From NCBI GenBank assembly GCA_947388185.1, contig CANDQP010000026.1, forward strand, positions 1 to 33,984: a DNA stretch of 33,984 nucleotides, given 5' to 3'. The translations under genes were made by a program, and so were the position numbers. Source of the DNA: an uncultured Dorea sp. Lineage in GTDB: Bacteria; Bacillota; Clostridia; Lachnospirales; Lachnospiraceae. The notes beneath the pieces are model-generated. The model made no database searches. It saw only the letters and a list, made by a program, of their open reading frames with translations, and was not told the origin of the DNA. Positions 3,459-11,794 of the stretch are shown in pieces (position 1 is the first letter of the stretch; each line of letters begins with the position of its first letter).

Positions 3459-3486
3459 AATGAAACTCCCCCTTATTCTCAACAAT

Positions 3487-3505
3487 GAAGTTACACGGTA
3501 ACTTC
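3487..3505 (+). terminator. Short hairpin after feoB
   Basis: An 8-bp perfect stem GAAGTTAC/GTAACTTC with a 3-nt loop, 28 nt after the feoB stop. It is followed by TGATTGCATTT rather than a clean U tract, so it is at best a weak terminator. The next promoter starts almost immediately. Confidence 0.35.
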
Positions 3506-3508
3506 TGA

Positions 3509-3536
3509 TTGCATTTCTGGAAGAATGTGATATAAT
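3509..3536 (+). promoter_or_regulatory. Promoter of the DUF6465 gene
   Basis: TTGCAT (3509-3514), 16-nt spacer, TATAAT (3531-3536) with an upstream TGA forming an extended -10 (AATGTGATATAAT). The same 13-mer occurs at the PHP-gene promoter (5180-5192). Confidence 0.65.
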
Positions 3537-3583
3537 ATTCACGACTCAGTGAAGAGGCTTAGGAGAAATTAGGAGGAATTATA

Positions 3584-4174
3584 ATGGTTACAAAGAAAGA
3601 AGTATCCGAAACTAAGAAAACTGAAACTGCGAAGACATCTGCTGCGGAGATTGTTACAGAATCGACAGAGGCAGCGAAGCCGGCCAGGACAACCAGAAAG
3701 AAAGCAGAGAAGAAAGAACCCGAGAAGAAGACTGCAGAGACCGCAGCAGAATCAGTGAAACCAGTTGTAGAAGCAGAGACAGCAGAATCAAAAACGCCTG
3801 AGAAGACACCTGAGAAGAAAGAACCTGAGAAGAAGACGTCTGCAAGATCAACAAAGAAAGAGACAACCGTGAAGAAGGATACAGCGAAGAAATCACCTGC
3901 GAAGACAACCGTGAAGAAAGAAACGGTTAAAAAAGAAACCGTGAAGAAAGAGACAGCAGCCAAAAAAGAGATCAAGGTGAATGCGGTTGTTGAGCACTAT
4001 GGACGACAGATAGAAGAGAGCGCGATTGTTGCCAATGTGAAGAAAGCATGGACAGCGTCCGGTAAGAAGATCAAGGATATCAAATCGATCGAATTGTATA
4101 TTAAGCCGGAAGAGAACGCGGTTTACTATGTCGTGAACGGAACAGAGACGGGAGCAATTGCATTGTACGAATAG
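3584..4174 (+). CDS. Lys/Thr/Glu-rich DUF6465-family protein, histone H1-like N-terminus
   Basis: A 196-residue protein in two parts. Residues 1 to about 128 are low complexity, with repeats of the KKETV, KKEPEKK and PAKTTVKK type, resembling histone H1-like bacterial tails that bind nucleic acid. The last 68 residues form a compact domain (KVNAVVEHYGRQIEESAIV onward, ending VNGTETGAIALYE) that matches what I recall of DUF6465 in Lachnospiraceae. AGGAGG is 7 nt upstream of the ATG. It has its own promoter and probably forms an operon with the membrane protein 15 nt downstream. Nucleoid or RNA binding is a guess from composition. The repeated codons make slippage-driven length change likely. 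Confidence 0.8.
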   Translation: MVTKKEVSETKKTETAKTSAAEIVTESTEAAKPARTTRKKAEKKEPEKKTAETAAESVKPVVEAETAESKTPEKTPEKKEPEKKTSARSTKKETTVKKDTAKKSPAKTTVKKETVKKETVKKETAAKKEIKVNAVVEHYGRQIEESAIVANVKKAWTASGKKIKDIKSIELYIKPEENAVYYVVNGTETGAIALYE

Positions 4175-4189
4175 GATTGGTTTTAAGTG

Positions 4190-5071
4190 ATGTGGGTTGG
4201 AGATAATTTACTTGAGATGATGAACGGACAGTTTGATGCGTTTTTGCCGATGAACGGACAGTTTGATACAGCCCTTGAATGGGCTTCGCAGATGATATTC
4301 GCGATGCAGATCGCGGCGGTTGTGATCGGACTGCTGGTCTGTTTCCTTGGATTGAAACTGATCAGAGTATTATCCGCAATCTCGGGTCTGGCAGTGGGAG
4401 CGGTATTAGGAACGGCCGCGGCTTTCGGACTCCGGTTTTCAGGTACGATGATACCTGTCACGATACTGGTATGCGCGGTCGTAGTAGCGGTGTTAGCCGT
4501 GGGAATCCGTAAGATAGGAGTCTTTTTTGTGATATTCCTCTATACGGCGGGGATCGTGCTGTCTCTGAATATACCGCAGCCCATGATCCTGCTGATCGCG
4601 TGCGGAGCAGCGGCGCTGCTGGCGGCAGTGCTGTCTATGATCTGGACGGATCCTGTCGTGGTAGTCATTACCGGAATATCAGGAGGTCTGTCTGCAGGGA
4701 TATCTGCTGCAGCGCTGCTTGGAATGGGCGGCAACATATTGCTTAGATACGGGATCAGCGCTGTTCTGGCGCTGCTTGGGATCTTGACGCAGTTTATGAT
4801 CCAGTCCAGGAAGATCGGCAAGAAAGAAAAGGTATATGCCAGTCAGATGCGCAACCAGGTATCCAGAGAATCTGAAGTTGAGAAGGCAAGACGGATACTG
4901 GAAGATGACGAAGAAGAGGATGAGGAATCTGATATCAGAACTGCGGGAAGTACCAGGAAGACCAAGACCGGCAGGAAGAAGAAGGTCAGCAAAAAAGTCT
5001 CCGCCAAGAGCGTTAAAAGCGATGATATGGAAGAGGATGACGATATAACGATCATTCATGAAGATTTGTAA
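4190..5071 (+). CDS. Multi-spanning membrane protein (DUF4203/TMEM198-like) with charged tail
   Basis: About 293 residues. A hydrophobic core of roughly seven membrane segments (from IAAVVIGLLVCFLGLKLI to LALLGILTQFMI) is followed by a cytoplasmic tail of about 80 residues that alternates acidic (DDEEEDEE) and basic (KTGRKKKVSKKVSAK) blocks. The fold resembles the DUF4203/TMEM198 group; no function is known. I chose ATG 4190; a GTG at 4187 and ATGs at 4217 and 4220 are alternatives. The N-terminus contains a tandem 30-nt duplication, so MNGQFD appears twice. It follows the DUF6465 gene closely and ends at a strong terminator. Confidence 0.72.
   Translation: MWVGDNLLEMMNGQFDAFLPMNGQFDTALEWASQMIFAMQIAAVVIGLLVCFLGLKLIRVLSAISGLAVGAVLGTAAAFGLRFSGTMIPVTILVCAVVVAVLAVGIRKIGVFFVIFLYTAGIVLSLNIPQPMILLIACGAAALLAAVLSMIWTDPVVVVITGISGGLSAGISAAALLGMGGNILLRYGISAVLALLGILTQFMIQSRKIGKKEKVYASQMRNQVSRESEVEKARRILEDDEEEDEESDIRTAGSTRKTKTGRKKKVSKKVSAKSVKSDDMEEDDDITIIHEDL
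4220..4267 (+). repeat. Tandem 30-nt period duplication inside the membrane-protein N-terminus
   Basis: The 18-mer ATGAACGGACAGTTTGAT occurs at 4220-4237 and again at 4250-4267, exactly 30 nt apart. It repeats MNGQFD in frame. Each copy begins with ATG, so the duplication also duplicates a possible start codon. Confidence 0.8.
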
Positions 5072-5076
5072 TTTTG

Positions 5077-5121
5077 AGTTACTGTTTACGGGCGTGCCAG
5101 TGAGCGGTAACTTTTTGTTTT
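5077..5121 (+). terminator. Intrinsic terminator after the DUF6465/membrane protein operon
   Basis: A 13-bp stem with several G-U pairs, 5077-5089 against 5100-5112, loop GGGCGTGCCA, followed by TTTTGTTTT. It starts 6 nt after the stop codon. Confidence 0.85.
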
Positions 5122-5164
5122 ATCGATTCTGTCAGGGAATTTCATCCATACAGATCCGATCTGG

Positions 5165-5192
5165 TTGTATTTTAGGCCAAATGTGATATAAT
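5165..5192 (+). promoter_or_regulatory. Promoter of the PHP-domain gene
   Basis: TTGTAT (5165-5170), 16-nt spacer, TATAAT (5187-5192) with the TG extension. It is 58 nt upstream of the chosen start. Confidence 0.65.
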
Positions 5193-5249
5193 AGAGGAAG
5201 GTGCAAGATTATCGGAACCGGAGAAATATAAGTGAAGGAGGCCTTAGCG

Positions 5250-6080
5250 ATGAAGATTGATATGCATTGTCATGTTAAAGAGGGCTCGATCGACAGTAAA
5301 GTAAGTCTGGATGAATATATCACGAAGCTAAAAGAGCATGGGTTCGAAGGGATGCTGATCACAGACCATGATACTTACAAGGGATACCGTCATTGGAAAT
5401 ATCACATGAAGGGGAAGGTTCATGAAGATTTTGTAGTATTGAAGGGGATCGAATATGATACCTATGATGCAGGGCACATTATCTGTATTATGCCGGAGGG
5501 CGTTAAGATGCGCCTGTTGGAGATCAAGGGGCTGCCGGTGAGTGTCCTGATCGATTTTGTGCATCGCCACGGCGGAATCTTAGGACCGGCGCATCCCTGC
5601 GGTGAGAAGTATCTGAGTTTTGCTCATACGAAGAAGTTTTATAAGTCGCCGGAACTTATCAAGAGATTCGATTTTATTGAAGGATTTAACGCGTGCGAGC
5701 CGGAAGAGTCCAACGCAGGTGCAATGAAGCTTGCAATGAAGTATAAGAAGCCTGCGATCGGGGGAAGTGATTCCCATAAGCTTGACTGTGTTTCGCTTGC
5801 ATATACGGAACTGCCGAATAGAGTGACCTGTGAGACAGAACTGATCTCATTGATCCGCAGCAAGGTGCCGATCGGTGTGGGCGGCACTATATACGGGAAG
5901 ACGACGAAGGATAAGATCGGGAAGGCGAATAAGCTGTTGGTGTACTCTTTCTGGTTCTATAATAAGGGCGGCGCTTTATTGAAGATGCGCAAGAGGAAGG
6001 AGAAGGGCCAGGTGGAGAATCCGATCGATCCGATCGATCCGATCGAGATTCCATATCTTAAACTTCAGGGAAAGGCTTAG
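5250..6080 (+). CDS. PHP-domain metal-dependent phosphoesterase
   Basis: 276 residues from ATG 5250, which has AAGGAGG 8 nt upstream; the longer GTG start at 5232 would lie inside that ribosome site. Metal-ligand motifs of the PHP superfamily are present: MHCH (His6, His8), ITDHDT (Asp39, His40), GIEYD (Glu68), GPAHPCG (His115) and GGSDSHK (Asp174, His176). PHP proteins hydrolyse phosphoesters with a trinuclear metal site; relatives act on histidinol phosphate, nucleotides or cyclic substrates, and the substrate here is unknown. The C-terminal tail carries an IDPIDPIE repeat from a 9-nt tandem repeat. Monocistronic. Confidence 0.86.
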   Translation: MKIDMHCHVKEGSIDSKVSLDEYITKLKEHGFEGMLITDHDTYKGYRHWKYHMKGKVHEDFVVLKGIEYDTYDAGHIICIMPEGVKMRLLEIKGLPVSVLIDFVHRHGGILGPAHPCGEKYLSFAHTKKFYKSPELIKRFDFIEGFNACEPEESNAGAMKLAMKYKKPAIGGSDSHKLDCVSLAYTELPNRVTCETELISLIRSKVPIGVGGTIYGKTTKDKIGKANKLLVYSFWFYNKGGALLKMRKRKEKGQVENPIDPIDPIEIPYLKLQGKA

Positions 6081-6082
6081 AC

Positions 6083-6108
6083 AGAGAGAGTCCTACGGGA
6101 CTCTCTCT
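6083..6108. other. Perfect hairpin with UACG tetraloop between convergent genes
   Basis: AGAGAGAGTCC (6083-6093) pairs perfectly with GGACTCTCTCT (6098-6108) around a C(TACG)G loop, a UNCG-type very stable tetraloop when read on the plus strand. Neither side has a U tract (plus side reads TTGAAAAAC), so it is not a canonical intrinsic terminator. It contains the stop codon of the minus-strand DUF4230 gene. A shared 3'-end stabiliser or weak bidirectional terminator is likely. Confidence 0.6.
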
Positions 6109-6866
6109 TGAAAAACAATGACTACTTTATACGCAGGTGATACCGATTTGACAACTGGTTGATAAGTTTCATAGGCGGACAGCTTAGCAAATCGATCCGC
6201 TTCTTCAAATCTTTCTTTTTCATTCAATTTTTCCTGCAGTTTTTGCACTGCTTCTGTTTCAAACTGCTTATGCTGCTCCTGATTTAATTCGATATCTCCA
6301 AATGCCAGCCATCCATTCTTGGTGTCTCCAATCTCTGTTTTCCCGGGATCAAAACTTGTATTATGAAGCACAGCATGCGGGATCTGAATGGTTAATTCAT
6401 AAGTCTCTTCATTTAACTGAATATTCTCCGGTGTGATCTGTGTCAGATCTATAGTATATTGTCCTGTTCCGTGAATCGTCAACGCCTGTTCCCTATTAAA
6501 AAATCCCAAATTGAACAATCCGGTATCCGTTATCGTTGTATTAACGTATGCCTCCTGTTCTTCTACTATCAACAATTTTTGCCGTGTTGTTTCTCCTAAA
6601 ATCGCCTCTTCAAAATCTGCCGCTGTAAATCCCAAAATACCGTTGTTTTCCAGTGTTAAATCATGATTTTCAACAGGCTGTACTTTTTCTGAGGTATTTC
6701 TTTTCTGTATAAAAAAAATACAAACGATCAGCCCTATTATTAAAAATACGCCGATCAAAAGAAGTTTAATTGATAGTCCTTTTTTCCCGTATTTCTTAAA
6801 TGCCTTTTCTACCGATTCGTCTATAATACATTTGAGCTCTTCGCTGCTGATATTCTCTCTACTCAT
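6093..6866 (-). CDS. DUF4230-domain single-pass membrane protein
   Basis: 257 residues. A short cytoplasmic N-terminus (MSRENISSEELKCIIDES) precedes one transmembrane helix at about residues 32-53 (LLLIGVFLIIGLIVCIFFI), then an extracytoplasmic domain of about 200 residues. The domain pattern (TTITDTGLFNLGFF, TGQYTIDLTQITPENI, ETYELTIQIPHAVL) fits DUF4230, a family of unknown function common in Firmicutes. The start overlaps the end of the preceding 57-residue gene by 8 nt, so the two are co-translated. It lies downstream of the kinase-STAND gene but is separated from it by a strong terminator. Confidence 0.82.
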   Translation of the reverse strand: MSRENISSEELKCIIDESVEKAFKKYGKKGLSIKLLLIGVFLIIGLIVCIFFIQKRNTSEKVQPVENHDLTLENNGILGFTAADFEEAILGETTRQKLLIVEEQEAYVNTTITDTGLFNLGFFNREQALTIHGTGQYTIDLTQITPENIQLNEETYELTIQIPHAVLHNTSFDPGKTEIGDTKNGWLAFGDIELNQEQHKQFETEAVQKLQEKLNEKERFEEADRFAKLSAYETYQPVVKSVSPAYKVVIVFQERVP

Positions 6867-7032
6867 CTTTTATCCTTCCCCTTGATTCTCCTGAAATAGT
6901 ACAAGTTTTCGGTTTTGCGCAAGTCGCATCATTCCATCTGTGGTAACAGGCATATACGGTGATCGCTCCTGCTGTTACAACTGTGATGACAACGAATGCA
7001 GCGATTATTATTTTTTTCTTTTTCTCCTTCAT
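6859..7032 (-). CDS. 57-residue membrane peptide with Cys motif
   Basis: Starts at ATG 7032 (MKEKKKKIIIAAFVV), has one membrane helix at about residues 8-29, and ends with a small Cys-bearing tail. The tail reads WNDATCAKPKTCTISGES, which resembles a zinc-ribbon-like repeat often seen in clostridial surface proteins (ATC..PKTC..CG.T.G), but the second Cys of the CxxC pair is Ser47. A longer frame back to 7185 begins inside the terminator of the upstream gene and is rejected. The start overlaps the stop of a possible 20-codon ORF as ATGA. Function unknown. Confidence 0.65.
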   Translation of the reverse strand: MKEKKKKIIIAAFVVITVVTAGAITVYACYHRWNDATCAKPKTCTISGESRGRIKDE

Positions 7033-7091
7033 TTGTTTATGGTCCTTCCTTTCTCTGTATAATCTCTGTAAACCTGTATTAATCTCTTCAT
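7029..7091 (-). CDS. Possible 20-residue leader or small ORF
   Basis: GGAGGGG lies 4-5 nt upstream of ATG 7091, the best ribosome site in this stretch. It opens a 20-codon frame (MKRLIQVYRDYTEKGRTINK) whose TGA overlaps the ATG of the 57-residue gene. The 57-residue gene has only a weaker GGAAGG site of its own, so translation of this ORF may feed it by coupling. The peptide is basic and has no recognisable family. It could also be a chance frame. Confidence 0.4.
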   Translation of the reverse strand: MKRLIQVYRDYTEKGRTINK

Positions 7092-7107
7092 TGACCCCTC
7101 CTTCCTG

Positions 7108-7123
7108 ATGCTGTTCACAGCAT
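7108..7123 (-). promoter_or_regulatory. Palindrome ATGCTGT-GA-ACAGCAT, candidate operator
   Basis: A 16-bp inverted repeat with 7-bp arms lies 17 nt upstream of the possible small ORF at 7091. A TGATATGCT extended -10-like element overlaps its upstream arm on the minus strand, with no good -35. A regulator-bound promoter for the three-gene DUF4230 unit is plausible because a terminator cuts it off from the kinase gene. Confidence 0.4.
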
Positions 7124-7157
7124 ATCACAAGAATTTTTGCACCCGGATTAGTCGATG

Positions 7158-7199
7158 CAAAAAGAACAGCCTCCAGACAAATCATCTGAAGACTGTTCT
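7158..7199 (-). terminator. Strong intrinsic terminator after the kinase-STAND gene
   Basis: A 15-bp stem, 7185-7199 against 7163-7177, with two or three G-U pairs, 7-nt loop, followed by TTTTT on the minus strand. It begins about 20 nt after the stop codon at 7220. Confidence 0.9.
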
Positions 7200-7219
7200 C
7201 TCATTTCCATATAATATTG

Positions 7220-10200
7220 TCATTTGTCTTCCGCTTCCATACTCTCCATAACCTTCCTGCAGGCATCTTCATCACCTGAGTAATAGCAGACTTCCAGCAA
7301 ATATTGATACAGCTCCATCTTTTTTCTGGCATAGGGGAGAATCTCCTGGTATTTTCCACAGGTCTTTATCCCTGAACGAAGAAGCTCTTGTGCTTTTTCC
7401 AGATTACCCAATTCTGTCATCATATTCGCATATGGAATTACGATAATATCTATATGCTCTAATTCCGTTGCACAGGTCTTGCCGACAATGTCATCCGCAA
7501 TGCTGCAGTATTTCATCGCTTGTATTTCATCCGGAACTATCAGCGTATAATACCATGCAACAGACATCGCATACTCCCACCGTAACCCGGAATACTTCTG
7601 CGCATTCTTTTCAATCTTCCTTCCTGCCTGCTCCAAAAGCCTGACAATCCCTTTCTTATTCTTCGGCGTGCTTCTCATCAGAACATTTGCCTTATTCAGC
7701 ATATACTGGGTGAGCAGGATTTCTTTACGGCCGTCTCTTGCCAGTTTCATATGGAAAATGGACCGGTCAATCGCTTTCATCAACTTTCCAAGATCACAAT
7801 ACTCATTGTCGTGTTCATATTGTCCGTCCAATCTTGTGTCGTAAAAGTCTGCCAGCATGTCATAGTATTCTGCCTTTATATGTTGGTTACTGTCCCTTGC
7901 AAAACTTTTCATTGCCTCAATCAGTTCCCATGCTTTTCCCAGTGCCCGTTGCTCCAAGTACACGGAAATCAACTTATGGTAAAGGGTCGTGATCACATAT
8001 CTGTTTTTACACGCAGGTTCATGTATCAGTTCCTCCGTATGACGAATGATATACTCTTCCCTGTCCACAGGCATATGAAGCAGCACATATCCGGCCAGTT
8101 CAATGCAGATATCCAGCTTTCCAAGCGCCTCGGTCTTCCTCGATTCATCCAGCACGCTTTCCGCCAACTGCAAGATCTGTTTTACTTTTCTATGATCCGT
8201 TGCTTTCTGCGCACCGCCCTGACTGACTCTTTTTTTCCATACCTCTCCGATCATGCCTTTTTTGTGCGCCTGCTTCTCCAGCCAGTCCCCTGTTTTGGAA
8301 TCCTTTTCAAATACGGAATTCAGATATCCGTTGATCTTAAGATATGGCAGCGGAAACTCTGCACGTTCTGCTTCAGTCCTCAGCCGCACATACAGAAATT
8401 CCGTGATATGACCGGCATCCGCCAGATATCTGTCCTTCCATTCCCATCCGCCGACTACTTCCCGAATAACCGGATGCATGGACAGCATTGTATCCGAACA
8501 AGTAATCCAGCCCTCTTCTTCCAGCTCATTCACAGGATCCATGGATGCCAGTTCCATCATTTCACTGAAAATATCAAGCTCAACGCCTGGCTGTGCAAAA
8601 AGAGAGAGTGCTTTCAGGATTCTTTTTTTCTCCTGATCCTGTCCATGATACGGAAAGACAACGAAAATAATATTTTTAATTGTCTCCCTGCCTGTCCTGC
8701 TGTCTTTCTCAAATCTGATTTTTTCAGAAGACATATTGGAAAAACCAGATTTCTCCACAAGCGTTTCTGCTTCCGCAATGGTAATCCGGCTGCTCTTGAT
8801 CTGCCGCGCGATCAATTCCAGTATCAGTGTATGCCCATCGCTTTTTGAAATAATATGATCCAGATAGCGTTTTTCGTCATCCTTTAGTTTCAGCCCCGAA
8901 TAATTTTCAAATAAATGATATAGCTGTGAAGGCTTCTGCAATGCCTCTAAACGCAGCTGCGCACCATTATCTGAAGGCGGCTTATCCCGCGAGATCACCA
9001 GCACTTTCCAACCGACGCGCAGCATCTGAAGAAATTCTTCTGTAATTTCCCCGCTGAAATTATCGATCACCAAAAGCGCTTTTTTCTGGGCGAGAATCCT
9101 GCTTAGTATCCTCAATTTGCGTATAAAATAATCACTGTCACTCTCTGCGGGCTCCTGCTTAGCCGTATTGATCTGGAGGCCGACATCATCAATCAATAAA
9201 TGCTGAATAGAATCCCGGTAATACAGATACAGCATCGTATCAAACTCTATGGCATTCGCAGAAACGAATTCCCTTGCCAGAGAGCTTTTCCCTATACCTC
9301 CTATCCCGGTCAGAAAAAAGCATTGGGATGCACCCTGTCCGAACCACTCCTCAAGTACCATGAGTTCATGGCATCTGCCTACAAAATATCGGTTCTGCGG
9401 AACTATTGCAGAACAAACATAGGGGATGGCTGTGTTGGCTAACCCGGAAAGCTCGTTTAATCTTTCTACAACCTCTCCCATCGTCTGGTATCTGTCAAAC
9501 CGATAGTTCGCAAGCGTTTTGTGAAAGAAATCCGACAGTTTCACAAACAGCTTATCCTGATAGCTGATATTGCCATATTTTGATCTTTCAAAACAATATT
9601 CCGCATCCGATACACACTCCGCGGCCCGCGGCGGATTACCAAAAATCAGGTAGAACAGCAAGGCTCCTATACCATAGACATCCGTATAAAACCCAAATTT
9701 ATGGAACTGCCCCATTTGATGTTCCAGAGGCGCAAATCCTTTTGTATAAGAAAACCTGCATCCGCTCATATTTTTTTCCTTCAGGCTCTTTATCCTGACC
9801 AAAGAGTCAAAATCAAACAACTGCACCAGTTCCGTTGCGCTGCCGCCTGCTGTATTTTTGAGGACAAATACATTGTCCGGCTTCATATCGAGATAAAGAT
9901 ATCCTGCCTTATGGATTCCGGCAACCACCTGAGAAACCGACCGCACGATACGGATACAGTCCTTCATATTTGAAAATGTATGGTATGTCAGAGTCCCGCC
10001 TTCAAGATAAACGGAAGGAATATAAACCGTATTATTTTGATCAAAACAGCGCAGCATATTTGTCATGGAATTTGTCAGACCTTCGGTCAGGAACAGGCCA
10101 TTCCCCTTTCGGAATGCCCGCCGCATGTTATCTTTTGCCTCCTCAAATTTCTCCTTATCCCCGCCGCCGGGAATCACTTCTCCGGTCTTGGTCCGCCTGA

Positions 10201-10408
10201 TATTCAATTCGAATGGATAACACTCTTTCAGCCGGATAGGTTTTTCTTCCCCAAAATCTGTCTGGTAAACAGCGTCATAGACGATACAGGAACCTCCCCT
10301 GGCAATTTCTTTTTGGATTGTATAAGACAAGCTGTTATCCCTGCATTTCAGTACGGTGTCTTTTTCCAGTGCAGTTCTTTGTTCCATGTTCTCACTTCCA
10401 ATTCTCAT
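7220..10408 (-). CDS. Ser/Thr protein kinase fused to NB-ARC (STAND) ATPase and helical repeats
   Basis: 1062 residues. The N-terminal Hanks-type kinase has a Gly loop (ARGGSCIVYDA, 36-46), Lys61, a catalytic loop YLDMKPDN (172-179; HRD replaced by YLD, catalytic Asp174 kept), DFD instead of DFG (199-201) and APLE (226-229). The NB-ARC/STAND ATPase follows, with Walker A GIGGIGKSS (368-376), Walker B ALLVIDN (444-450), sensor VLVISRDK, and a winged-helix MHPVIREV motif. The last 350 residues are helical, TPR-like. This is the STAND order effector, nucleotide switch, sensor repeats. Start is ATG 10408, or ATG 10387, which has a better GGAAG site. Role in signalling or defence is inferred. Confidence 0.88.
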   Translation of the reverse strand: MRIGSENMEQRTALEKDTVLKCRDNSLSYTIQKEIARGGSCIVYDAVYQTDFGEEKPIRLKECYPFELNIRRTKTGEVIPGGGDKEKFEEAKDNMRRAFRKGNGLFLTEGLTNSMTNMLRCFDQNNTVYIPSVYLEGGTLTYHTFSNMKDCIRIVRSVSQVVAGIHKAGYLYLDMKPDNVFVLKNTAGGSATELVQLFDFDSLVRIKSLKEKNMSGCRFSYTKGFAPLEHQMGQFHKFGFYTDVYGIGALLFYLIFGNPPRAAECVSDAEYCFERSKYGNISYQDKLFVKLSDFFHKTLANYRFDRYQTMGEVVERLNELSGLANTAIPYVCSAIVPQNRYFVGRCHELMVLEEWFGQGASQCFFLTGIGGIGKSSLAREFVSANAIEFDTMLYLYYRDSIQHLLIDDVGLQINTAKQEPAESDSDYFIRKLRILSRILAQKKALLVIDNFSGEITEEFLQMLRVGWKVLVISRDKPPSDNGAQLRLEALQKPSQLYHLFENYSGLKLKDDEKRYLDHIISKSDGHTLILELIARQIKSSRITIAEAETLVEKSGFSNMSSEKIRFEKDSRTGRETIKNIIFVVFPYHGQDQEKKRILKALSLFAQPGVELDIFSEMMELASMDPVNELEEEGWITCSDTMLSMHPVIREVVGGWEWKDRYLADAGHITEFLYVRLRTEAERAEFPLPYLKINGYLNSVFEKDSKTGDWLEKQAHKKGMIGEVWKKRVSQGGAQKATDHRKVKQILQLAESVLDESRKTEALGKLDICIELAGYVLLHMPVDREEYIIRHTEELIHEPACKNRYVITTLYHKLISVYLEQRALGKAWELIEAMKSFARDSNQHIKAEYYDMLADFYDTRLDGQYEHDNEYCDLGKLMKAIDRSIFHMKLARDGRKEILLTQYMLNKANVLMRSTPKNKKGIVRLLEQAGRKIEKNAQKYSGLRWEYAMSVAWYYTLIVPDEIQAMKYCSIADDIVGKTCATELEHIDIIVIPYANMMTELGNLEKAQELLRSGIKTCGKYQEILPYARKKMELYQYLLEVCYYSGDEDACRKVMESMEAEDK

Positions 10409-10434
10409 ATATGTCTTTTTGCTACATGATGATT

Positions 10435-10445
10435 GTACACTGTAC
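10435..10445. promoter_or_regulatory. 11-bp palindrome GTACA-C-TGTAC upstream of the kinase-STAND gene
   Basis: A perfect 5-bp inverted repeat around one base in the 65-nt gap between the 424-residue gene and the kinase gene. A TACAAT -10-like hexamer overlaps it on the minus strand without a clear -35. Could be an operator of an internal promoter, or chance. Confidence 0.25.
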
Positions 10446-10473
10446 TTTTACCATACTGGTTTTACTGCTACAT

Positions 10474-11748
10474 TCACTGTTTGTCCTGATTCCCGTTCAG
10501 ACTGTGTATGTATTCCTCATTTTCCAGATACATTTCATGTATAAATTCCCTGAAAACTGTCAGCGGTTCCTGGCTTTTACTGCAATAAAGGAAAATCCAG
10601 TCATACGGATTGCCTAAATACAATTCAAGGTAACCCACTTCCAGGAGCATCTTGTTGATATCACTTATAAACCTTTCATCATCCCCGTCAGACGCCTGAT
10701 ATACCATCATATTCTTACTTGTTATGAACCGATCATTTTGATTGGGGAAGGCTTTGCGGATCCAAAAATAGTAAAAATATGTCAGGATCAGAGTCTTTCG
10801 GATACTTTCCGGCTCAACATGCTCGCCTTTTAATATTTTTTCTATCGTTTGCCTGTTGGGGAACTGCCTCTCTGCAACTTTGGGTAAAAGCGGATTATTT
10901 TCCAGCAAGGGCTTAATACTCCTGTCAGACTTTATAACAAAAAGAGGCTCGATCCTGCCGTCTTCCTTTTCCTCGACCTCATCCAGTCCCAAAATCTGTC
11001 TGAACACTTCCGATGTGCTTCGAACGGATTCCATATTCACGTCTAACATCTGAATTTTCGTTCTTTCCAGGTCAGCCAGTCCATCTCCTCTTCCGCGCAG
11101 CTTCTTCCACAGCTTTTGAATCTCTTCCGTAGCTCCCGCATGATTATATCCAAATTTCTCCGCATTCACCATGAAATAATCAAGGAGTTCCTCCGGATCT
11201 TGAAACTTATCAATTTCCCTTACGATTGTAGAGGTAAATAAAATATCTCCGTCAAATACCATCCTGCTGTTCATCACATTGGGAATATCCTTATCTGGCA
11301 GTGAGTGAAGCATCTCTAACGCTTTCAGATAATTCATTCCTCTGCAGAGGCAAAAATAGTATACGGCCTCCTCCATCACATGACAGTCAAAGCTCTTCAT
11401 CAGCATTACCCGCCTGAAAAAATCATCTGTCCCTTCTTTATCAAGCCCAAACGCAAAGCAAATCTGGAATCCGGTCCTGCGGCTGATTCCTTTATCTTTC
11501 GTATACCATTCCTTTATACTTCTTGGCATTGGTGATATCCCGGCATTTTCAAAGGCGGTCCTGATATAGGCTGATTTTTGATTGATATCGCCAAGATCAC
11601 CATTATAACCATGTTCCTTTATAAACTCATCCAGTGAAGCAGCAAAGGTACGAAACATCCCTGCGGTATCCAATATGATCTCTCTCGGATAATCCTCATT
11701 CGCCGCTTCAAGAGCCTTTATTCCCATAGATTTTGTATAATTGTCCAC
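10474..11748 (-). CDS. Unrecognised 424-residue protein with HTH-like segments, partner of kinase-STAND
   Basis: Starts at GTG 11748 with AGGAGG 9 nt upstream. I do not recognise a family with certainty. Residues about 88-120 (ISRRTGFQICFAFGLDKEGTDDFFRR) resemble the helical core of Xre-like proteins of Lachnospiraceae in which a short-codon FGLGL-type turn precedes an E-rich helix. A second segment (FPNRQTIEKILKGEHVEPES followed by IRKTLILTYFYYFW) has a similar look. No membrane segment or signal peptide. It lies 65 nt upstream of the kinase-STAND gene on the same strand, so a regulator or substrate role for that kinase is plausible but inferred. Confidence 0.7.
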   Translation of the reverse strand: MDNYTKSMGIKALEAANEDYPREIILDTAGMFRTFAASLDEFIKEHGYNGDLGDINQKSAYIRTAFENAGISPMPRSIKEWYTKDKGISRRTGFQICFAFGLDKEGTDDFFRRVMLMKSFDCHVMEEAVYYFCLCRGMNYLKALEMLHSLPDKDIPNVMNSRMVFDGDILFTSTIVREIDKFQDPEELLDYFMVNAEKFGYNHAGATEEIQKLWKKLRGRGDGLADLERTKIQMLDVNMESVRSTSEVFRQILGLDEVEEKEDGRIEPLFVIKSDRSIKPLLENNPLLPKVAERQFPNRQTIEKILKGEHVEPESIRKTLILTYFYYFWIRKAFPNQNDRFITSKNMMVYQASDGDDERFISDINKMLLEVGYLELYLGNPYDWIFLYCSKSQEPLTVFREFIHEMYLENEEYIHSLNGNQDKQ

Positions 11749-11794
11749 CGATGGCTTCCTCCTGCATTAAACTTATTTTGCTTCATTCCGCCCC

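Follow-up and report, generated by a model that had tools for sequence, protein, structure and literature searches.

The window analyzed here is a stretch of 33,984 nucleotides from an uncultured Dorea sp. (contig CANDQP010000026.1), and all coordinates are positions in it. On its minus strand lie four genes, which in the order of transcription encode a 424-residue protein (11748-10474), a 1,062-residue protein that joins a kinase domain to a signal transduction ATPase with numerous domains (STAND) and TPR-like repeats (10408-7220), a short Cys peptide, and a DUF4230 protein (6866-6093). We refer to the first two genes as the pair and to the 424-residue protein as the partner. An earlier note on this DNA had proposed a sensing or defense system at this locus; the positions and motifs it reported are correct, with D174 and K374 being the residues it named. 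The kinase and partner genes are each present in a single copy in their own genome (E≤0.01). The partner gene (10474..11748) opens with GTG. The kinase gene is listed as 7220..10408, but its start is probably the ATG at 10387 rather than 10408, because homologues open with “MDxRxAL”; for the Cys peptide, the probable start is 7032 (~57 residues) and not 7185.

The 1,062-residue protein carries a Hanks-type kinase domain at residues ~25-325 (9434..10336), an NB-ARC ATPase with a winged-helix region at residues ~342-655 (8444..9385), and TPR-like helical repeats, the presumed sensor, at residues ~739-1062 (7223..8194, from Pfam and AlphaFold2). In Pfam, Pkinase matched at 46 bits (cut-off 31.7) and NB-ARC at 39.8 bits (cut-off 23.5), with TPR matching weakly and no HipA family among the matches at E≤1. 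NCBIfam gave partial matches alone, far under the cut-off, and among the 25 of 29 PADLOC matches listed, the named families PD-T4-6, mad6, and MkoA align over the kinase region. The AlphaFold2 model (pLDDT 84.1, pTM 0.64) predicts a kinase (~19-323), an alpha/beta switch, a winged helix, and a superhelix of helical repeats. For this protein, Foldseek ranks the crystal structure of a STAND-TPR protein (6mfv) first, followed by chains of plant NLRs and of CED-4 and, after these, by kinases. Among solved kinases, PpkA is the nearest in a sequence-profile comparison (E=3.6e-22). Pfam, AlphaFold2, and Foldseek agree on a single polypeptide with kinase, NB-ARC, and TPR-like parts, as the earlier note had described it. 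The protein has the marks of a STAND protein, namely, an NB-ARC-type P-loop, a winged helix with an MHD-like His, and C-terminal repeats, and by its sequence the kinase is of the Hanks type, with the VAIK Lys, HRD Asp, Asn, and DFG Asp present and conserved.

The same note had pointed to an altered HRD (YLD) and DFG (DFD) beside an intact Lys and catalytic Asp, and our alignments confirm this. K61, D174, N179, and D199 are intact in the window protein, and together with D201 they are invariant in both kinase alignments, one of 11 rows and one of 37 (36 of 40 candidates plus the window sequence, with L172, two sequences of L186, and L192 left out). Since these residues do not vary, YLD and DFD are, as judged from the aligned sequences, family traits and not decay, and the catalytic residues look selected. 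The Walker K374 and the MHD-like H645 are also invariant in the 37-row alignment. One contig (L014/L172) encodes a relative with Arg at the Walker Lys position and without the H645 equivalent; it entered the 11-row alignment as L014 and was excluded from the larger one as L172.

The partner belongs to an unnamed family that combines a probable XRE-like helix-turn-helix (HTH) with a helical domain lacking a clear structural match. Residues ~30-120 (11661-11389) have a predicted XRE-like fold and are probably an HTH, a domain of five helices in XRE/Cro-type regulators. The remainder is alpha-helical and carries a conserved GNPYDW motif. The positions of T5 and T172 hold Ser or Thr in all 67 aligned partner sequences (66 of 69 candidates plus the window; L149, L165, and L169 were left out). 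The protein has no match in Pfam, NCBIfam, or PADLOC, and Foldseek searches of PDB and BFVD with its C-terminal domain gave nothing at E≤0.001. VIA matches fall largely on residues 30-120 and 233-376, and we therefore do not claim the fold of this domain as new. A first contig search with the window partner sequence alone gave no match, and alignment A1 was too diverged for use as a search profile. The gap between the two genes (10409-10473) contains a palindrome, GTACAGTGTAC, that is possibly an operator and possibly chance; as a shared operator it was rejected, since a scan of 75 other loci found the pattern in none of them and, by eye, no inverted repeat stood out as common to them.

The 424-residue gene and the kinase gene belong together as one system, as seen from both sides of the pair. 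The partner profile has matches in 54 of the 397 genomes searched from the family and in 4 of 398 from the phylum (the source genome counting in both), and a full-length kinase match occurs in 1 of 12 genus genomes, its own. Starting from the partner, we fetched 69 neighborhoods (9 + 60) and used 67, setting aside L121, which originated in the search with the kinase, and L112, whose partner open reading frame (ORF) was not picked. A gene matching the kinase model is the next neighbor in 51 of these 67 and lies within three genes in 60, the exceptions being L016, L075, L079, L081, L089, L106, and L119. By gene rank from the partner, the kinase rate falls from 52/129 to 12/120, 5/112, and 0/93, with 1/131 beyond that. 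In 20 regions picked arbitrarily from related genomes, neither model matched any of the 199 ORFs. Partner matches under 50 bits make up 29 of the 67, and 24 of these 29 nonetheless have an adjacent kinase.

Starting from the kinase, a profile search of named genomes gave 125 relatives, from which 79 loci were retained. The partner is present in 75 of them, on the same strand in 54 (median gap, 56 bp) and on the opposite strand in 21; it lies 1.5-4.1 kb from the kinase in 7 of the 21 opposite-strand pairs and 1 of the 54 same-strand pairs. Four loci are without a partner (L168, L184, L191, and L195), two of which, L184 and L191, begin at a contig end. The two sets of loci overlap, with at least 10 contigs of equal size in both. 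Distances among partners and among kinase domains are correlated (r=0.91) over the 68 pairs passing length, score, and distance filters, with 0 of 2,000 permutations as high. The earlier note had joined the two genes as one system by inference and named co-occurrence as the check; the 75/79 and 60/67 counts bear it out. Titles of kinase-relative records include Lachnospiraceae, Oscillospiraceae, Erysipelotrichaceae, Selenomonadaceae, Synergistaceae, and Chloroflexi/Flexilinea, and many of the records are gut or rumen metagenome-assembled genomes. One contig (L161) holds two partner-kinase pairs ~8 kb apart. At L016, a partner homologue scoring 498 bits has no nearby kinase; Pfam identifies band-7/zinc-ribbon and ClpX-like genes beside it, and a further neighbor looks MoxR-like by eye.

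Across these loci the kinase and the HTH partner are constant, and the kinase tail varies. Partner relatives pair with kinase-NB-ARC-TPR proteins of ~1,000 residues, the type found in the window, or of ~1,430 residues, mostly on the opposite strand. At L019, a partner relative is paired with a kinase that carries a Big_2 Ig-like domain and no NB-ARC, and the kinases of L020 and L022 resemble it in length and ending. The L064 kinase, similar to the L019 type, has a predicted membrane segment; none is predicted in the L019, L020, and L022 kinases at the cut-off used. Among the matches listed, HTH-only partner relatives pair with kinases bearing predicted membrane segments. This exchange of tails around a constant pair is the main reason why we prefer a signaling pair over a STAND effector. 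Of the order of effector, switch, and sensor read by the earlier note, the domain order stands, but the role of the kinase as effector is weakened, as the same partner family goes with non-STAND kinases.

We propose, with about even confidence, that the two genes form a dedicated kinase-regulator pair with interchangeable sensors that works like mycobacterial PknK and VirS. The TPR repeats would sense a cytoplasmic ligand, upon which the NB-ARC switch would swap nucleotide and assemble, and this assembly would activate the N-terminal Ser/Thr kinase. The activated kinase would then phosphorylate or bind the partner encoded by the adjacent gene, T172 being the best candidate acceptor, and the partner, through its probable XRE-like HTH, would control how the pair itself and nearby targets are transcribed; in many loci, these targets may be genes for envelope components or lipoproteins. 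What the data themselves establish is the domains, the conserved catalytic residues, the strong linkage in both directions with co-divergence, and the exchange of kinase tails. PknK, a kinase with a STAND part, is described in an excerpt of PMC4601284 as phosphorylating VirS, and an excerpt of PMC9045387 gives it further substrates. The window protein resembles PknK in being a Hanks kinase with a C-terminal STAND part, and PknK phosphorylates a DNA-binding regulator; VirS, however, is of the AraC type and outside the partner family of the window, and we liken the two by description and not by sequence.

What appears new is the pair, kinase-STAND proteins and kinase-HTH pairs each being already known. 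We found no description of it in the literature searched, which was limited to open-license PMC papers; the earlier note likewise knew of no named system with the set of parts it listed. Bacterial Ser/Thr kinases are described in the abstract of PMC4601284 as having pleiotropic rather than exclusive targets, and a family of dedicated kinase-regulator pairs, if true, would reverse that picture and provide bacterial NLR-like proteins with an output at the level of transcription. A broader view, which we hold only tentatively, is that these pairs are a Ser/Thr counterpart of two-component systems: cognate pairs of one kinase and one regulator, widespread among gut bacteria, whose HTH partner stays the same while the sensor is swapped between intracellular NLR-like STAND-TPR parts and Ig-like receptors facing outside, and the inputs are wired to local envelope or defense genes. 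Many gut bacteria carry such a pair, which has the look of a switch, so far unnamed, that would respond to stress or invaders; the idea is testable now because copies exist in the named strains Ruminococcus albus 7 and Butyrivibrio proteoclasticus B316.

Immunity is the serious rival to a signaling pair. Bacterial NLR-like/Avs STAND defense proteins have an N-terminal output domain, a STAND ATPase, and a C-terminal sensor, an order shared by the window protein; the latter differs in that its output is a Hanks kinase whose catalytic residues are conserved and in that it has a near-obligate partner. In an anti-phage system of this kind, which we consider unlikely here, the repeats would detect a phage product, the STAND switch would turn on a growth-arresting kinase effector, and the partner would be an autorepressor or a required cofactor. 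Beyond the domain order, the genomic setting favors this reading: the pair sits in an accessory cassette that is missing as a block from a close relative, and the full-length kinase is confined to the source genome within the genus sample. On plasmid pRUMAL01 of R. albus 7 (L249), the pair lies in a defense-island-like setting between a PIN toxin-antitoxin and BrxL plus ThiF/Mov34, and on plasmid pCY186 of B. proteoclasticus B316 a gene of the caspase family lies ~3 kb from the pair; the kinase and partner models confirmed the pairs on both plasmids. Kinase relatives occur on six viral contigs, and on four of these (L201-L204) a partner gene is clearly present as well; against this reading, the partner had no match at E≤1e-3 in 50,697 annotated phage records. 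The kinase domain resembles the PD-T4-6 and mad6 kinases in PADLOC, a resemblance that would be expected of many Hanks kinases. With 94 of the 174 neighbor genes picked (L122-L152), 135 PADLOC models were matched, versus 44 with 94 proteins from arbitrary regions; because models rather than proteins are counted and a Cas9 locus was among the controls, the comparison carries no weight either way. What also tells against an immune effector is that the same partner family also goes with Ig-like-tail kinases that have no STAND part. On the 53-kb IMG/VR contig L202, the pair lies near one end, just past XRE-repressor- and integrase-like genes seen by eye, as prophage cargo or host flank. VMAP-type conflict systems of bacteria also bring together kinase and AP-ATPase/TPR domains, most of the kinases treated in PMC7159879 being described there as catalytically disrupted; the window kinase differs in its conserved residues, and a Pfam scan of 10 window proteins showed none with a vWA domain.

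After immunity comes a HipBA-like toxin-antitoxin, in which the XRE partner would repress the operon and neutralize a toxic kinase and the STAND part would gate release. HipBA pairs an XRE-type HTH gene with a kinase gene, as the window probably does; there the probable HTH gene comes first and the kinase second, the median gap being 56 bp in the 54 same-strand loci, and the partner has an XRE-like fold. A HipA-like kinase system with phage defense, DS-6, offers a precedent (excerpt of PMC13092281). We nevertheless regard this reading as improbable. The window kinase is of the Hanks type, with no HipA family from Pfam, and is fused to a STAND-TPR sensor; the partners are large (~400 residues) with a conserved domain besides the HTH; 21 pairs lie on opposite strands; and in some loci the kinase or the partner occurs alone.

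The two downstream genes encode a short membrane-anchored Cys peptide (6859..7032), which overlaps the DUF4230 gene, and a DUF4230 protein with one N-terminal membrane helix (6093..6866), a true Pfam match at 46.7 bits (cut-off 27). Just 3′ of the kinase stop codon lies a terminator-like hairpin (7160..7202) with a 19-bp stem and a 3′ arm ending in a U run (folding energy -27 kcal/mol, z=-4.75, equaled by 0 of 200 shuffled sequences); a general terminator scan of the window did not list it, and separate folding found it. It agrees with the separate control of the DUF4230 unit suggested by the earlier note. A DUF4230 relative was found in 0 of 85 kinase loci (phmmer with the window protein, E≤1e-3), and neither kinase nor partner in the fetched flanks of five DUF4230 relatives elsewhere, one of them 65% identical (in L247, one of these five stretches, the DUF4230 ORF itself is missing from the called ORFs). 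That all four genes form one functional system, as the earlier note had it, is very improbable given these counts and the intervening hairpin, even though they share one block and secreted or membrane proteins are overrepresented just downstream of same-strand pairs elsewhere. DUF4230 is rejected as a core component; it and the Cys peptide are cassette passengers that traveled with the pair.

The cassette spans 6080..11780 and holds all four genes, whose guanine-cytosine content is 0.38-0.45 versus 0.46-0.51 in the six flanking genes measured. A close relative, G206, with flanking blocks 86-98% identical, is without exactly 6080-11780. In four further genus relatives, the empty site is seen in three, and the fourth stretch stops short of it. 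The flanking PHP and ArsP_2 genes lie on one contig ~2 kb apart in 9 of 11 other genus genomes, too little room for the cassette. The absence of the block from relatives implies that gain, or loss elsewhere, affected the four genes together as a single block. Repeats at the cassette junctions were only chance-length matches. Adjoining the cassette is a 2.6-kb segment (3484-6079) with the PHP-domain gene and two neighbors; it is in the opposite orientation in G206, and also in the four further relatives where aligned. Inverted repeats at its ends were likewise only chance-length matches.

Around pairs in other genomes, secreted-like products are frequent immediately downstream. With neighbor counts taken without correction for relatedness, the first downstream gene (≤1 kb) of same-strand pairs is secreted-like in 12 of 32 loci; the corresponding figures are 7 of 46 for the first gene upstream, 53 of 486 for genes farther away, and 0 of 13 for opposite-strand pairs. 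We prefer this stricter count of one gene per locus to a looser one (16/32 loci versus 60/555 genes). The commonest Pfam family among the 94 neighbor genes picked from 174 is DUF6591 (9), which occurs in 22 of 299 family genomes and not in the source genome. Other recurrent neighbors are an Ig-like lipoprotein, dynamin with a HerA-like ATPase, metallo-beta-lactamase with Hsp70, band-7, and NERD. Band-7, TPM-like, and zinc-ribbon neighbors occur in few loci (TPM and zinc ribbon at L174 by eye; zinc ribbon at L016 by Pfam); gene sets of this kind are described as envelope-stress operons in an excerpt of PMC11237479, and by analogy these neighbors lean toward envelope stress. Dynamin-like and HerA-like ATPase genes, possibly a membrane-remodeling module, lie near the pair at L130, L164, L178, L199, and L201 (by Pfam at L164 and L201 and by phmmer at the others). 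At L185 and L193, opposite-strand pairs are followed in the same order by a metallo-beta-lactamase, an unnamed protein of 364-370 residues, and an Hsp70-like protein.
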